From the NCBI RefSeq assembly GCF_014646055.1, contig NZ_BMMS01000016.1, positions 1-64,000 on the forward strand: a stretch of DNA of 64,000 nt. The letters are read 5' to 3'. The stretch comes from Wenjunlia tyrosinilytica. Its GTDB lineage: Bacteria > Actinomycetota > Actinomycetes > Streptomycetales > Streptomycetaceae. The position numbers and the translations under genes were made by a program. The notes under the pieces were generated by a model. It ran no database searches and was not told where the DNA came from. It was given only the letters and a program-made list of their open reading frames with translations. Position 1 is the stretch's first letter. Each line of letters opens with the position of its first letter. Shown one piece after another: positions 50,242 through 56,124 of this stretch.

Positions 50242-50474
50242 TCTCTTCTGCCGTATCGCGTGTTCGCAGGTCAGACCTTACGACTCCTACTTCGGACATA
50301 ACGGATGCAGGAGCCGTTCCGCCGCTGTCTTGGCGCGGCCTTGACGCGTTGGCCGACGCCTCGGCCCACGCCTCGGCCCACCCGTTGGCGGGGCGTTGGC
50401 GCTTCGCGCAGTTGTCACGACCGTGCAATACGCCGTGCATGGATCGGCCCGCGCCGCGTTGCCAGGATGGATCC

Positions 50475-50567
50475 ATGCCCACCGCAGCGCTCTGCTCCCG
50501 CCGCCATATCGACCTGTGTCGTGTGGCCGCCGCGCTGTGTGCCCGCGGGCGCCGCGCGGCGGCCTGA
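50475..50567 (+). CDS. leader peptide of the RRHxD class upstream of the ROK-TauD unit
   Basis: 30 codons with ATG preceded by AGGA seven bases upstream. It contains LCSRRHIDLCRVAAALC, three cysteines around an RRHID(L)xR core. I recall Streptomyces genomes carrying many ORFs annotated as putative leader peptide with this RRHVDLxR core, often before sulfur or ABC-transport genes, where cysteine codons suggest attenuation. A hairpin follows within five bases of the stop. The nearest downstream genes in the same direction are a ROK regulator and a TauD-family dioxygenase about 750 bases on. Confidence 0.75.
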   Translation: MPTAALCSRRHIDLCRVAAALCARGRRAAA

Positions 50568-50571
50568 GCCG

Positions 50572-50587
50572 GGGGCCGTCCGGCCCC
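50572..50587 (+). promoter_or_regulatory. hairpin directly after leader peptide, possible attenuator
   Basis: GGGGCCG-TC-CGGCCCC, perfect seven-base arms, beginning four bases after the leader stop. A ribosome stalled in the leader would affect its folding. Confidence 0.45.
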
Positions 50588-50748
50588 GCCGGACGCCGGA
50601 TCCAGTCGACCGTTCGCTCCGGCCCGCCCAACCGGGTTCTCGGATGCGCACGGGGCGCGGCGACAGCGCCTCGGCCGCCGGCCGCTCGGCCAGGCGGGCG
50701 CTCGATTCCTCGGCCGACCGCAGTCCCGGACGCGCGTGCAGCGCCGGG

Positions 50749-51130
50749 GGCAGCGGCTGCACCGCTGGGGCGGGGATGGAGGCTCGACCGGTCGGCCGTT
50801 CGGTCCACAGGACGATTCCGGCTCCCACCGGAGTCCCCGAAGGCGCGAGGCACGCCGCGGCAGCGGCTGCACCGCTCGGCCCGACGCGACGCTCGACCGG
50901 GCGGCCGTTCGGTCCACCGCGACAGTTGTCCGGCTCCGACCGGAGTCCCCGGACACACGCGCCACGCCCGGGACGGCTCGGCCGGGCGGGACGCTCGATC
51001 CCGGCCCCTCGGGCCGACCGACGTCCCCGGATGCACGCGTCGCAGCCGGGGGCAGCGGATGCACCGCTCGACCGGGCGGCCGTTCGGTCCACCGCGACAG
51101 TTGTCCGGCTCCGACCGGAGTCCCCGGACA
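50749..51130. repeat. diverged long tandem repeats forming hairpins
   Basis: GGCAGCGGCTGCACCGCT (or one-base variant) begins units at 50749, 50859 and 51051. A 65-base segment is identical at 50891-50955 and 51066-51130, beginning GCTCGACCGGGCGGCC and ending CCCCGGACA. Each copy ends in a hairpin (TGTCCGG ... CCGGACA around CTCC/GGAG). Weaker half-units extend the array to about 50690-51180. The 50568-51319 stretch has no convincing gene on either strand. Confidence 0.8.
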
Positions 51131-51319
51131 TGCGCGCCGCGCCGGGGGCGGCGGCTCGGCGTTGGATCCGCTCGGTCCGGCCCCCGGCTCCGACCGGGGG
51201 CTCGGGCAAGGGCGGGGCGGCGGGCACGCCGCCCAGCGCGCAGGCCGCCCCGCATTAGTTGCTCACCGTGAGAAAAGCACGTCCCGCCCCGAAGTCCGGC
51301 CCCCACGGGAGGACATCTC

Positions 51320-52663
51320 ATGCTCCACCGCATCGGACCCGTCGGCGACGGGCGCCGTCAGGCGAACACCGCGGCCGTCCTGCGGGCCGTCCTCGACAAC
51401 GGACCGGTCTCGCGCAGCGAGGTCGCCCGGCTCACCGGCCTCAGCCCGGCCTCGGTAACCCGGCAGTACGCCGAACTCGCCCGTCTGGGCCTGGTACGGG
51501 AACTGCCGCCCATGACGAGCACACGCGTCGGCCGCCCCCAGGTGCCCATCGACGTGGCCGCCGCCGCGGACGGCGACGGCCCGGTCGTCGCCGGGGTGCA
51601 CCTCGCCGTACCGGGCACGCGCCTGGTCCTGGTCGATCTGCGCGGGCGGGTGCTCGCGCAGGAAGTGCTCGAACGCGAGCGGCGCGATCCCCCGTTCGTG
51701 CTGGGGCAGGCCACGGAACGGCTCCCCGGCTTCCTCGAGGAGCACCTGGGCAGTCGGCGGGCGCTGGCTCTCGGGGTCGCCGTGGGCGGCTGGGTCGATC
51801 CCGGCCGGGGCGTCGTCGTCGAGCATGTGCCGCTGGGGTGGAACGGCGTCCCGGTGCGGGAGTTGCTGGGTGCCGCCGGGCTGCCGGTCCATGTGGACAG
51901 CCACTCCCGCGCACTCGCCCACGCCGAAGTCCTCTTCGGCGACCCGAGGGCACGGCGCAGCCTCGTCCATCTGTTCGTGGGCAATGTGGTCGATGCCGCA
52001 CTGGCCACGGGCGGCACTGTCCACCACGGTCCCCGTGCGGGCGCGGGCGATGTCGCGCATCTGCCCCTGGGCGAGGCGTCGGTGCGATGTCCCTGCGGGC
52101 GCACCGGCTGTTTCCAGGCCGCGGTCTCGGAGGCCGCTGCCGCCAACCGGGCGGCCGACCTGGGGATCGTTCCCGCACCGGACTTCAACGATCTCCTGGA
52201 CGCGGCGGCAAGCGGCGACCGGCGTGCCGACGCCCTTCTTCGCCGTCGCGCCCGGCTCACCGGCCGCGCCGTGGCCCTCCTGCTGGACGTGGTCAATCCG
52301 GAGGTGCTGGTCCTCACCGACCAGAGCCTGATCCTCTCGCCGCACTACCTGCCCGAGGTGCACGAGGAGGTCCGTGCCCACTCGCACGTGTGCGACGACC
52401 CGGAGGAGGTGGTCGTGCCGTCGAGCTTCGGGACGGATGTCCTGGGCGTCGCGGCCGGAGCCGTCGTCCTCGCCGATCTCTACCAGCGCCCGCTGACCCT
52501 GCTCGATTCACCGCTCAACCCACAGCCCAGCTCACAACCCAACTCACAACCCGATTCGCTGCCCGCTCCACCCCCCGCTGCACCGCTCGACCCACCACTC
52601 GATTCGCACCTCGGTCCACCGCTTTCCTCACCATCCCAACTCCCCCAAGGAGCCCTGCCATGA
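51320..52663 (+). CDS. ROK-family transcriptional regulator
   Basis: 447 residues. Winged helix-turn-helix (VSRSEVARLTGLSPASVTRQYAELARLGLV), then a ROK domain keeping the zinc motif CPCGRTGCFQ. The kinase-type DNDAN segment is replaced by DSHSRALAHAEVLFG, so it is not a sugar kinase. The last 55 residues are a Pro/Ser/Gln repeat tail of Asn/Gln-Pro-Ser-type steps beyond the fold. GGAGGA lies seven bases before the ATG. Its stop overlaps the TauD start (ATGA), so it is probably the local regulator of that enzyme. Confidence 0.85.
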   Translation: MLHRIGPVGDGRRQANTAAVLRAVLDNGPVSRSEVARLTGLSPASVTRQYAELARLGLVRELPPMTSTRVGRPQVPIDVAAAADGDGPVVAGVHLAVPGTRLVLVDLRGRVLAQEVLERERRDPPFVLGQATERLPGFLEEHLGSRRALALGVAVGGWVDPGRGVVVEHVPLGWNGVPVRELLGAAGLPVHVDSHSRALAHAEVLFGDPRARRSLVHLFVGNVVDAALATGGTVHHGPRAGAGDVAHLPLGEASVRCPCGRTGCFQAAVSEAAAANRAADLGIVPAPDFNDLLDAAASGDRRADALLRRRARLTGRAVALLLDVVNPEVLVLTDQSLILSPHYLPEVHEEVRAHSHVCDDPEEVVVPSSFGTDVLGVAAGAVVLADLYQRPLTLLDSPLNPQPSSQPNSQPDSLPAPPPAAPLDPPLDSHLGPPLSSPSQLPQGALP

Positions 52664-53577
52664 CCACCGCCCTGTCCCTCACCGTCTCCAAGGTCGCCGG
52701 AAACATCGGCGCCCGCATCGACGGCGTGGACCTCGCCTCCGACCTGGACGACTCCGTGATCGCCGCCATCCGCGCGGCCCTGCTGGAGCACAAGGTCGTC
52801 TTCTTCCGCGGCCAGAACCTGGACGCCGACTCCCAGGAGGCGTTCGCCCGGCGCTTCGGCACCCCGACCACCGCGCACCCCACCGTCCCCGCCCTGGAGG
52901 GTGCCCCGGCCGTCCTGGACCTGGACTACGGCCGCACGACCGGGCGGGCCAACCACTGGCACACCGACGTCACCTTCGTCCAGCACCCGCCGCTCGGCTC
53001 CCTGCTGCGTGCCGTCACCATCCCTCCCGCGGGCGGTGACACCGTATGGGCCGACACCGCCCGCGCCTACCAGAGCCTGCCGCCGGAGCTGCGCGAACTC
53101 GCCGACCGCCTGTGGGCGGTGCACTCCAACGCCTACGACTACGTCGCCGACGCCAAGCCCGGGGACGACACCGAGGACGCCAGGCGGCACCGCGAGGTCT
53201 TCACCTCGACCGAGTACGTCACCGAGCACCCCGTGGTGCGGGTCCACCCGGAGACCGGCGAACGGGTCCTGGTCCTGGGCGGATTCGTTCGCCGCTTCGT
53301 CGGCTGGACCGGTGAGGACTCGCGTGACCTGCTGCGCATCCTGCAGAACCACGTCACCCGGCTGGAGAACACGGTGCGCTGGCAGTGGGCACCGGGAGAT
53401 TTGGTCTTCTGGGACAACCGGGCGACCCAGCACTACGCGATCGCCGACTACGGCACCGACCCGCGGCGCGTGCAGCGCATCACGCTGGCCGGGGACGTCC
53501 CGGTGTCGGTGACAGGAGAGCGAAGCCGCTCGATCACGGGCGACGACACGCACTACAACACGGCGCTGGCGTCCTGA
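52660..53577 (+). CDS. TauD/TfdA family Fe(II)/2-oxoglutarate dioxygenase
   Basis: 305 residues, TauD fold. Iron facial triad HTD (NHWHTDVTF) and distal His in NRATQHYAI; 2-oxoglutarate arginine in RRVQRITLAGD. This family oxidises taurine, alkylsulfonates, alkylsulfates or 2,4-D to release sulfite, sulfate or phenol. The cysteine-rich leader upstream supports a sulfur-scavenging role, but the substrate cannot be read from sequence. AAGGAG site present; coupled to the ROK gene. Confidence 0.9.
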   Translation: MTTALSLTVSKVAGNIGARIDGVDLASDLDDSVIAAIRAALLEHKVVFFRGQNLDADSQEAFARRFGTPTTAHPTVPALEGAPAVLDLDYGRTTGRANHWHTDVTFVQHPPLGSLLRAVTIPPAGGDTVWADTARAYQSLPPELRELADRLWAVHSNAYDYVADAKPGDDTEDARRHREVFTSTEYVTEHPVVRVHPETGERVLVLGGFVRRFVGWTGEDSRDLLRILQNHVTRLENTVRWQWAPGDLVFWDNRATQHYAIADYGTDPRRVQRITLAGDVPVSVTGERSRSITGDDTHYNTALAS

Positions 53578-53624
53578 ACGCTGTTCGAGCGCCCGCGCGC
53601 GAGCAGCCGGCGAGTACCGACTGG

Positions 53625-53649
53625 GCCGGGCACCCCCGCGGTGTCCGGC
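53625..53649. terminator. terminator between convergent TauD and methyltransferase genes
   Basis: GCCGGGCACC (53625-53634) pairs with GGTGTCCGGC (53640-53649) with one G-U pair. Confidence 0.6.
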
Positions 53650-54426
53650 TCAGGCGGGTTTGCGGGCGAGGCCGCCGACCATCAGGCGCTGGGCGATCGT
53701 CAGGGGGCGGCGCACTCCGCCTTCCGGGCGCCACTGGGGCAGGTGGACCACACCGGGCGGCACGAGGTCCAGCCCGTCGAAGTACGCCGCTATCTGCTTG
53801 GTCGAGCGGAAGCGCCCGGTGCCCAGGCCCGACAGCAGTGCCTGTTCCAGGGCCAGTGCCTCGGGTGTCCCGGCGCAGAAGTGGGTGAGGAACAGATGGC
53901 TGCCCGGCGCGAGGGCGTTCGTGTACGCGCGCACGATCCCCGTGGGGTCCTCGTTGTCGTTGAGGTAGTGGATCACGCTCACGAGCATCATTCCCACGGG
54001 CCGGTCGAAGTCGATGGCGGCCCGCAGATCGGGGTGGTCCAGCACCGCCTTGGGCCGGCGCAGGTCCGCGGTGACCACCGTTGTCCGGTCGTTCTCCGCG
54101 AGCAGGGCCCGGCCGTGGGCCGAGACCACCGGGTCGTTGTCGACGTAGACCACCCGGGTGTCGGAGGCGACGCTCTGGGCGACCTCATGGGTGTTCTGCG
54201 CGGTGGGCAGGCCGGAGCCCAGGTCGACTAACTGGCGGATGCCCGCCTTCACCATGTAGCGCACGGCGCGGCCGAGCATCGCCCGGTTGTCGCGGGCGAC
54301 ATCGCGGATCTCTGGAACGATCCGCTGCGTCTGCGCGGCCACGGCCCGGTCCGCCGCGTAGTTGTCCTTCCCTCCGAGGATGGCGTCGTAGACACGCGCG
54401 ATGTTCGGCCTTGTGTGGTCGATCAC
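53650..54426 (-). CDS. SAM-dependent methyltransferase (DUF574 family)
   Basis: 258 residues of the actinobacterial PF04672 (DUF574) class: PNIARVYDAILGGKDNYAAD at the start, VDLGSGLPTAQNTHEVAQ (SAM site) and VVYVDNDPVVSAHGRALL. Streptomyces carry many paralogues of unknown target, often developmentally controlled. Monocistronic; no clear ribosome site. Confidence 0.88.
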   Translation of the reverse strand: MIDHTRPNIARVYDAILGGKDNYAADRAVAAQTQRIVPEIRDVARDNRAMLGRAVRYMVKAGIRQLVDLGSGLPTAQNTHEVAQSVASDTRVVYVDNDPVVSAHGRALLAENDRTTVVTADLRRPKAVLDHPDLRAAIDFDRPVGMMLVSVIHYLNDNEDPTGIVRAYTNALAPGSHLFLTHFCAGTPEALALEQALLSGLGTGRFRSTKQIAAYFDGLDLVPPGVVHLPQWRPEGGVRRPLTIAQRLMVGGLARKPA

Positions 54427-54589
54427 TGATGAGCCCCCCGGAACCCCTCGATTCCTTACGGTAGGTCAGCTTATGTGACGGACCGCCATGTTGAGCAGGA
54501 GCGTTGCACATCTGAACGCCTATGCACAGCAAGAATCGGTTTCGACTCGTCATTGGCGCCGCGCGAGCGGTGCCGCCCGTGGACAGTGC

Positions 54590-54629
54590 GACGGCGGGCG
54601 GCCCCTGGGGCAGGGAGCCGCCCGCCGTC
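54590..54629 (-). terminator. terminator downstream of the IPNS-like gene
   Basis: GACGGCGGGCGGC (54590-54602) pairs perfectly with GCCGCCCGCCGTC (54617-54629), 13 bp. Between it and the stop, GTCGCGCTCGG(G/C)CCC recurs three times (54675-54721), the last copy covering the stop codon. The remainder of the gap (54427-54589) shows no gene. Confidence 0.8.
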
Positions 54630-54713
54630 GAGCCCGGCGCGCTTCCGGCTCGGCCCGCCCCGCGCTCCCCCCGCGTCGCGCTCGGGCCCCTGTCGCGCTC
54701 GGCCCCGTCGCGC

Positions 54714-55736
54714 TCAGCCCGAGGCGGCCGCCAGCCCCGTGTCGATCAGCTCGGCGTGGTGGCGGCGGGCCACCGCGGGGTGCGCGCGGACCCAGCCCTT
54801 GATCTCGTTGCGCCCGTACTCGGCGAACAGCGGGTTGGCCGGGTCCTCGGTGACACCGGGAGCGAGGTGGGCGTGCGGGAAGGGCACGGGCTCGATACGG
54901 GCGTCGAGCCGGGGGTTGTAGAAGAACGGCACGGAGAAGCGCTCCCGGCTGCCGGGCGGGCTCACGACCCGGTGGTTGGTCGCCTTGAGGTAGCCCCTGG
55001 TGGCAACCTCCAGCAGTTCGCCCAGATTCACCACGAACGCCCCCGGCATCGGCGGCACATCGAGGAACGAGCCGTCCCGTGTCTCGACCTGGAGGCCGCC
55101 GACCCCGTCCTGGAGGAGCAGGGTCAGGAAGCCGTAGTCCTTGTGGGCGCCCACGCCCTGTCCGGCGCCGTCGGGGGCGCTGCCCGGGTACCGGACCAGC
55201 TTCAGGTGCAGATGGGGGCGCTCGGCGAACGCACCGTCGTAGAAGGTCCGCGGCGCGCCGATCGCGGCCAGCAGCTCCCGCAGAAGCCTACGGGCCACCG
55301 CGCTCAGCCGGTCGACCCAGCCGAGGGCGGCGGTGCGCAGCTCGGGCAGGGAGGCCGGCCACTGGTTGGGACCCTCCAGCCACCAGTATCCGGGTTCGTC
55401 GGGGCCGGGGACTCGAGCGGCGCGCTCGGCGCCTATGTCGAGCTGGTCGCGCCAGTCCTGGCTGCCGCCCGTGCGCTCGTCGCCGACGCGGGTGTAGCCG
55501 CGGAAGTGCGGTGAGTTCAGATTGCTGATGGCGAAGCGCTCGGCCTCGGGAAGGGCGAAGAAGGCCCGGACGGCCCGCATGAGCGCGTCGGTCTCGGCGG
55601 CGCGGACGCCGTGGCCGACGAGGTGGAAGAAGCCGACATCGCGGGCGGCGGAATGCAGCGAGTCACGCAGACGGGCACGGGCTTCGGGATCACCGGTGGC
55701 CGCTGCCAGGTCGATGAGGGGGAGCTCATTGGTCAT
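54714..55736 (-). CDS. isopenicillin-N-synthase-family Fe(II)/2-oxoglutarate oxygenase
   Basis: 340 residues. DIOX_N domain (ELPLIDLAAATGDPEARARL, FFHLVGHGV) and the 2OG-FeII_Oxy domain with iron ligands in GAHKDYGFLTLL and TNHRVVSPP, and the RxS 2-oxoglutarate pair in ERFSVPFFYNP. The substrate is unknown; no beta-lactam or other biosynthetic genes adjoin. The ATG at 55736 is the start; the long upstream open frame is spurious and crosses a leader peptide in another frame. Leader and hairpin upstream imply attenuation. Confidence 0.88.
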   Translation of the reverse strand: MTNELPLIDLAAATGDPEARARLRDSLHSAARDVGFFHLVGHGVRAAETDALMRAVRAFFALPEAERFAISNLNSPHFRGYTRVGDERTGGSQDWRDQLDIGAERAARVPGPDEPGYWWLEGPNQWPASLPELRTAALGWVDRLSAVARRLLRELLAAIGAPRTFYDGAFAERPHLHLKLVRYPGSAPDGAGQGVGAHKDYGFLTLLLQDGVGGLQVETRDGSFLDVPPMPGAFVVNLGELLEVATRGYLKATNHRVVSPPGSRERFSVPFFYNPRLDARIEPVPFPHAHLAPGVTEDPANPLFAEYGRNEIKGWVRAHPAVARRHHAELIDTGLAAASG

Positions 55737-55775
55737 GGGGTTTCCACAGCCTCCACAGCTTGAGGAACCGGTCCG

Positions 55776-55793
55776 GTCCAGCGGTGGCTGGAC
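55776..55793 (-). promoter_or_regulatory. hairpin between leader peptide and IPNS-like gene
   Basis: GTCCAGC-GGTG-GCTGGAC, perfect seven-base arms, 40 bases before the oxygenase start and 92 bases after the leader stop. Candidate attenuator. Confidence 0.45.
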
Positions 55794-55885
55794 GGCCCGC
55801 GGTCGCGCAGGGTGAGGCGGCAGCCGCGGTGGCCGGATGGATGGCGAGGGTATGCCTGGCCCGGAAACGGGCGAAAGGGGGAGAA

Positions 55886-55960
55886 TCAGCCGATGCGGAG
55901 ACAGGACATGCTCGTGACGCGGACGAAGTCCACGTGGCGGCGGCTGACGAGCATGGTCAC
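55886..55960 (-). CDS. leader peptide of the RRHxD class upstream of the IPNS-like oxygenase
   Basis: 24 codons from GTG (55958-55960), containing VSRRHVDFVRVTSMSCLRIG. It has the RRHVD core and C-terminal Ser/Cys of Streptomyces putative leader peptides. No ribosome site precedes it, but TACGAT (plus-strand 55968-55973 reversed) lies exactly seven bases upstream, so the message probably begins at the GTG. An ATG two codons in is an alternative. The oxygenase gene begins 149 bases downstream on the same strand. Too short for standard gene finders. Confidence 0.75.
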   Translation of the reverse strand: MTMLVSRRHVDFVRVTSMSCLRIG

Positions 55961-56124
55961 GCGGGAAATCGTAGGTCATGGGTGCGAATGGGCCAGCATT
56001 CGGGCCCCGGGGGGCGGCCGGACGGTGGCCCCGCGGTGGCCCCGGGGCGGGTGGGGCGGGTGGGTCGGCGGTCCGCGGCGCAAACCCGTGGCCGCTGTCA
56101 GTGGTGGGTGCCACACTCGGTCGC

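Follow-up and report, generated by a model that had tools for sequence, protein, structure and literature searches.

The 64,000-nucleotide (nt) stretch of Wenjunlia tyrosinilytica DNA analysed here (contig NZ_BMMS01000016.1, positions 1 to 64,000; hereafter the window) holds two micro-open reading frames (micro-ORFs) with a common SRRH(I/V)D..RV motif, leader 1 on the plus strand and leader 2 on the minus strand (Table 1). What do these peptides respond to, and which genes do they control? A first-pass annotation had placed leader 1 before a pair of ROK and TauD genes and leader 2 before an IPNS-like gene, and had read the two oxygenase genes, of different branches, as under one small-peptide control with a common signal, perhaps sulfur or cysteine supply. 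The reading that best fits the sequence comparisons, and one that we consider likely, is cysteine attenuation by a leaderless leader peptide.

The leader peptides and their family

Both micro-ORFs were confirmed, with translations that agree with their positions and strands. The 8.49-Mb genome was scanned with a degenerate DNA version of RRH(V/I/L/M)D(L/F) in which arginine is always CGN; it matched 10 times, the backwards control three times. The window leaders account for two of the 10, and a further leader of this genome, L008/L028, for one. At the genome density of the pattern ~0.08 matches are expected per 64 kb, and both leaders match NCBIfam leader-peptide models, so the shared motif exceeds chance. 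Leader 1 scores 29.6 bits against NF042934 (28.7 in a genome scan), above the curated cut-off of 27. Leader 2 is a close relative of NF042934 and no strict member, as judged by sequence score; its ortholog L208 (genome G012) reaches 32.9 bits, over the cut-off, and leader 2 itself scores 28.3 bits against NF042936 (Ms4527A family Cys-rich leader peptide), for which the cut-off is 45.

An over-cut-off NF042934 match was found in 200 of 200 sampled genomes of the family and in 78 of the 118 genomes sampled across the class, 8 of the 118 being from the window's own family; none of the 14 control genomes had a match at E≤0.001. A search of the genome that holds the window gave, at E≤10, 21 places, seven of them over the cut-off. 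Thirteen places were counted as leaders, by E≤0.03 together with the motif and a TGT codon, and seven of these score over the cut-off. An Rfam search of the window returned nothing at the gathering threshold, and a plasmid collection searched with leader 2 gave three weak matches. By their profile scores the two micro-ORFs probably fall among the cysteine-responsive leader peptides of actinobacteria, or, for leader 2, just beside them; elements of this kind are already known.

A near-invariant UGU codon at the conserved cysteine

Leader 2 has one Cys codon and leader 1 has three, none adjacent, and a run of consecutive Cys codons is absent from both. In leader 2 the UGU is placed 11 codons downstream of the conserved His. 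Across a wider set of 43 leaders found by profile, which includes the 13 own-genome leaders, the motif residues are kept nearly throughout (R 42, H 40, D 43, L 41, R 42, C 43), the His-to-Cys step is identical in 43/43, and the conserved Cys codon is TGT in all 43. Third positions vary at the other residues: Val is encoded by GTC, GTG, GTA or GTT, Asp by GAC or GAT, and Arg by CGC, CGT, CGG or AGG. This variation, together with the fixed TGT, indicates selection on the peptide at the other motif residues and on the codon at Cys. The NF042934 search model is a protein-level model and does not itself select for UGU.

The comparison was widened to 94 distinct leaders from a collection of 101, leaving out L252 and L253 (no motif in the frame read), L204 and L211 (a stop at the Cys position) and three identical sequences. 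At the conserved Cys, 93 of the 94 have TGT; among the remaining 124 Cys codons of these peptides TGT occurs 24 times. By source, the counts at the conserved Cys and at other Cys codons are 28/28 and 2/26 for the best family matches, 26/27 and 5/30 for five other genomes, 26/26 and 13/59 for the class sample, and 13/13 and 4/9 for the window's own genome, a weak contrast within that genome alone. The Fisher p value for the contrast is 2e-37, although the leaders are related by descent and this is not a count of independent events. The sole exception, a TGC in L217, has TGT directly after it. The background TGT share of Cys codons is 0.125 in the coding ORFs of the window and 0.144-0.149 in the loci. 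UGU is presumably read by wobble.

The near-invariant UGU suggests, at the level of sequence, a codon-specific sensor. Set against the mostly UGC cysteine codons elsewhere, it would give a simple rule on cysteine sensing by such leaders, and the rule could aid in finding leaders and pairing them with genes across actinobacteria. L204 and L211, from two genera, each carry at locus position about 1500 an LLVxRxHxDLCRLASA-type leader with TAG at the conserved-Cys position.

Leader 2 and the IPNS-like oxygenase

The IPNS-like protein scores best against chains 9ovh and 6jyv among solved structures, and was matched at E≤1e-60 in 117 of the 200 sampled family genomes, six of these having only a 51-54% homolog. 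Leader 2 was found upstream of all 29 fetched ortholog loci, the window's own excluded, at a distance of 166-347 nt from where the protein match begins; in this set the reverse strand gave 0/29 and a downstream control 0/29. A larger set of 80 named IPNS-like loci has the leader at 79 and a reverse-strand leader at none. The two sets overlap in their genomes, L122 and L042 being one and the same place. Taken on sequence conservation, the link between leader 2 and the IPNS-like oxygenase is well supported, and the leader is a clue to the function of a widespread oxygenase of unknown substrate, with nearly every close ortholog locus carrying it. Two features make the locus worth following: the fixed UGU, and this conserved association of a cysteine leader with an oxygenase that is still uncharacterised.

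A TAnnnT hexamer lies 6-7 nt before an in-frame ATG or GTG in 79/79 leader 2 orthologs and at 0 of 395 control positions. Because of this -10 hexamer so close to the start codon, the leader 2 transcript is probably leaderless. Among the 101 leaders of the wider collection, a relaxed -10 pattern is present in 78 (24 of 505 control positions).

Three further observations concern the same region. The linker contains TACCCT (55847-55852, minus strand) within a GCATACCCT stretch that is found in several close relatives too. Just before RRH, the leader 2 orthologs (L092-L171) often use the rare codons GTT/GTA (44/79) and CGA (27/79), with background shares of 0.04 of Val codons and 0.02 of Arg codons, respectively; these perhaps reflect an unstructured 5' end. 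At L273, L274 and L276, all from one genus, a TSMAC-type leader stands on the opposite strand and reads away from a distant IPNS-like homolog.

Leaders elsewhere in the genome

Downstream genes of the 13 own-genome leaders were taken by position, as the nearest long ORF that passes a GC-frame filter. Eight of the 13 leaders precede recognisable sulfur or cysteine genes (Table 1). Given this and the names of the matching families, cysteine or sulfur supply is most likely the signal of a regulon. This genome has three leader pairs spaced by no more than 5.5 kb (contigs C16, C28 and C42), compared with ~0.1 expected by an arithmetic estimate for 13 evenly spread leaders, and the leaders therefore cluster.

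The window pair is one of these three, a sample of a regulon and no private two-oxygenase circuit. What stands of the annotation's proposal is small-peptide control of one class with a sulfur or cysteine signal; the special pairing of two oxygenases falls away. Nor is their proximity conserved: when flanks of up to 3 kb around the 80 IPNS-like loci were searched for the ROK, TauD, KdpD-like, methyltransferase and NADAR proteins of the window, none of the five had a match at E≤1e-10.

Table 1. Features of the locus in the window, and genes downstream of the other leaders in the same genome (aa, amino acids)
Feature	Position	Strand	Description
Leader 1 micro-ORF	50475..50567	plus	ATG start; 30 aa; MPTAALCSRRHIDLCRVAAALCARGRRAAA, then stop; translation as listed
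Conserved Cys codon, leader 1	50538..50540	plus	TGT
Weak -10-like hexamer, leader 1	50463..50468	plus	CAGGAT; 6 nt before the ATG; relaxed nAnnnT pattern only
Leader 1-to-ROK gap	50568..51319	plus	752 nt; imperfect repeats inside; link to ROK-TauD uncertain
ROK-family regulator gene	51320..52663	plus	Pfam ROK, 96.7 bits
TauD-family dioxygenase gene	52660..53577	plus	Overlaps ROK stop codon; Pfam TauD, 233.3 bits
IPNS-like 2-oxoglutarate/Fe(II) oxygenase gene	54714..55736	minus	Proposed target of leader 2; Pfam DIOX_N and 2OG-FeII_Oxy
Leader 2-to-oxygenase linker	55737..55885	minus	149 nt; no terminator-like site; C 0.44, G 0.27
Leader 2 micro-ORF	55886..55960	minus	GTG start; 24 aa; VTMLVSRRHVDFVRVTSMSCLRIG, then stop; translation as listed
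Conserved Cys codon, leader 2	55901..55903	minus	TGT in 79/79 orthologs; proposed stall codon
-10-like hexamer, leader 2	55968..55973	minus	TACGAT; 7 nt before the GTG (at 55960)
Leader L001			Downstream: NtaA/DmoA-type monooxygenase, slightly below its family cut-off
Leader L002			Downstream: ThiS-like protein and cysteine synthase
Leader L003			Downstream: sulfurtransferase-like rhodanese protein
Leader L004/L269			Downstream: nitrite/sulfite-reductase-like gene, then CysH and CysD
Leader L006			Downstream: SsuE
Leader L007			Downstream: cysteine dioxygenase-like gene (PF05995)
Leader L008			Downstream: second TauD-family dioxygenase
Leader L009			Downstream: PAP2-domain protein
Leader L011			Downstream gene not resolved
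Leader L012			Downstream: O-acetylhomoserine/O-acetylserine (OAH/OAS) sulfhydrylase
Leader L013			Downstream: transporter permease

Leader 1 and the ROK-TauD genes

Leader 1 is probably functional too, with the ROK-TauD genes as the nearest candidate target; at a distance of 752 nt we are less sure of this assignment. The TauD protein is closest among solved structures to chains of the alkylsulfatase AtsK (best 1oih, E 8.3e-110), a likeness that fits sulfur scavenging, and lies beyond both the gap and the ROK gene. The pairing of leaders with targets that had been proposed is well supported for leader 2 and the IPNS-like gene and is not for leader 1 and ROK-TauD, where three syntenic loci gave no family leader in the gap before ROK and 0 of 29 ROK loci gave one within 1.5 kb upstream.

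It is quite conceivable, though not the likelier case, that leader 1 has been displaced or orphaned and does not control ROK-TauD. The gap is full of imperfect repeats, and the search for family leaders was negative both in the interval between the KdpD-like and ROK genes at the three syntenic loci (L262-L264) and in the 1.5 kb upstream of ROK homologs at all 29 loci scanned, which were drawn from matches in 96 of the 200 genomes. At L262-L264 the ROK homolog stands next to a gene that we take to be KdpD-like from a reading of its sequence, and two of the three have a TauD at 80% identity beside them. Against an orphan leader 1 are its retained UGU and its score above the family cut-off, and no ORF between leader 1 and ROK passes the GC-frame filter. 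Seven larger regions were fetched: in L260 a leader stands ~200 nt upstream of the ROK homolog, a further point against an orphan, and in L261 one follows the ROK gene.

The repeats between leader 1 and ROK occupy 50600-51250 and include two 95-nt copies (92% identity) and 37-nt copies able to fold as hairpins. A search of the own genome with 50600-51200 returned the region itself and one weak 68-nt match at 77%. Between ROK and TauD, L263 and L264 carry another type of micro-ORF candidate, MD(A/V)TGRAAARDAAGREAVNAFRAHHFAGLGCRPTG...; it contains one TGT Cys codon and lacks RRHxD.

Probable cysteine attenuation and its alternatives

Under cysteine attenuation, transcription would begin at the leader start codon and the ribosome would translate the leaderless ORF. 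When Cys-tRNA is plentiful, the ribosome would pass the UGU and terminate, and the downstream gene would be poorly expressed. When Cys-tRNA is scarce, it would wait at the UGU, the linker RNA would refold or Rho would be blocked, and the oxygenase would be made. The output step may be translational, through masking of the Shine-Dalgarno sequence, or Rho-dependent. The C-rich, G-poor linker of leader 2 would suit Rho; the linkers of its orthologs average C 0.48 and G 0.25, compared with 0.38 and 0.36 in the region upstream of the leader. The gap behind leader 1 is not C-rich and G-poor (C 0.40, G 0.38).

Several results sit awkwardly with this model and count against it. Leader 2 reaches 23.9 bits against NF042934 (23 in the genome scan), ~3 bits short of the cut-off of 27, and six of the 13 own-genome leaders score below it; at the loose limit of E≤10, 10 of the 14 control genomes also matched, none over the cut-off. 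Leader 2 was not found at one of the 80 ortholog loci, L123, and a leader on the gene's strand was found at 0 of 7 distant IPNS-like homologs (51-55% identity). The strict -10 hexamer is present in 49 of the wider set of 101 leaders (5 of 505 control positions) and in 5 of the 13 own-genome leaders, and the TACCCT of the linker could be a second TAnnnT-like -10 element giving leader-independent transcription that bypasses leader 2. The cysteine dioxygenase-like gene behind L007 is odd if the leaders switch genes on under cysteine shortage. A consensus scan found 0 terminator-like sites at either leader, where a classical attenuator would have an intrinsic terminator. In an RNAalifold alignment of 22 sequences, GUCC of the leader pairs with GGAC ahead of the start codon and no pair is changed on both sides. 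Pairing of the leader with the 25 nt ahead of the start gives a duplex energy of -19.2 kcal/mol compared with -17.0 for shuffled sequences (standard deviation of shuffles 4.2), a modest difference, also against reversed sequences; these energies cover 76 of 80 sequences, namely the window and 75 of its 79 orthologs, and leave out four in which the script found no start codon. The missing leader at the three syntenic loci of leader 1 belongs to the same side.

A different sensor is possible, although we lean against it: the peptide RRHxDLxRVxSxxC may act in the ribosome tunnel as a nascent-peptide arrest sequence, stalling at or near the Cys, with peptide and codon both taking part in sensing. 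The motif residues kept in 43 leaders despite varying third positions, together with the constant His-to-Cys step, would be expected of such a peptide, and RNA structure inside the ORF fails to account for the motif. The peptide cannot, however, account for UGU over UGC, and A or F replaces the H in some members. A tentative extension, on balance unlikely, joins codon and peptide: the near-invariant UGU at a fixed distance behind RRHxDLxRV would form a combined codon-and-nascent-chain arrest element, with the IPNS-like oxygenase recruited into the cysteine regulon in Streptomyces and related genera. If true, this would predict the IPNS-like oxygenase to be an unrecognised sulfur-salvage enzyme.

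RNA folding bears on a third alternative, that the conserved stretch is an RNA structure or DNA operator and its translation is incidental, which we hold to be improbable. The 131 nt from the leader 2 start fold better than shuffles (z -2.45), as does the linker (z -2.34), and it is possible to draw a stem across the ORF; codon choice, too, is fixed in parts of the leader 2 group (GTG 79/79, ACG 71/79). Compared with synonymous recodings, however, leader 2 orthologs show no significant gain in folding (mean z -0.50 over 56 distinct sequences, with p≤0.05 in none; mean 0.00 in coding controls; z -0.77 for leader 2 of the window). Most stem pairs are invariant, 20 to 35 of 65 sequences break some of the pairs, and amino acids are kept across paralogs while third positions vary. 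An RNA hairpin inside the leader ORF was separately considered as the cause of the RRHxD motif and was not supported (43 leaders, mean z -0.37; coding controls 0.06).

The same folds bear on the short hairpin that had been described after each leader. The leader 1 end region folds no better than shuffles (z 0.46); the leader 2 stretch does, and its longest stem is inside the ORF, with no terminator-like sites. Hairpins after the leaders are not the conserved feature. That the micro-ORFs arose by chance and have no function is barely credible: short ORFs are frequent in GC-rich DNA, yet leader 2 is at 79/80 orthologs with 0/80 on the reverse strand, and the family matches 200/200 family genomes versus 0/14 controls.

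Comparison with known leaders

Mycobacterial polycysteine leaderless short ORFs were reportedly described by Canestrari et al. in 2020, known here through citing papers. In M. smegmatis, cysteine-responsive regulation by leaderless short ORFs is described or cited in PMC9031893, PMC9094748 and PMC13236596. Like the leaders of the window, those ORFs are short and contain Cys codons, and a leaderless start and a place before sulfur-metabolism genes would be further likenesses; unlike them, they have a run of Cys codons, whereas leader 2 has its single UGU.

As far as the accessible parts of the reports go, a literature search, with most subscription papers outside it, brought no paper that we recognised on this leader in Streptomyces or on its UGU preference. 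The available text of a S. lividans reannotation lists eight leader peptides, none for cysteine (PMC8079986). The NF042934 entry (cis_reg_atten, putative leader peptide) describes the same 19-position motif that is present in the window leaders; it differs in being a protein-level model that cannot record the UGU rule, and leader 2 falls 3 bits under its cut-off.

Other systems resemble the window leaders in part, as described in the sections of the papers available. The conserved small upstream ORF with Cys codons before cysA2 in mycobacteria is a proposed attenuator with reported ribosome occupancy (PMC4633059); its Cys codons are clustered, and the host is mycobacterial. Leaders of actinobacterial cys operons are likewise short ORFs with Cys codons before cys genes, with no conserved terminator hairpins, and Rho has been weakly suggested for them (PMC1262725). 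Those are from Mycobacterium, Propionibacterium acnes and Bifidobacterium longum and have runs of Cys codons. In Rhodobacterales, uORFC-8-2 before cysS shares the use of Cys codons in an upstream-ORF attenuator (PMC8632094), but this alpha-proteobacterial element has tandem Cys codons, mainly UGC, and an intrinsic terminator.

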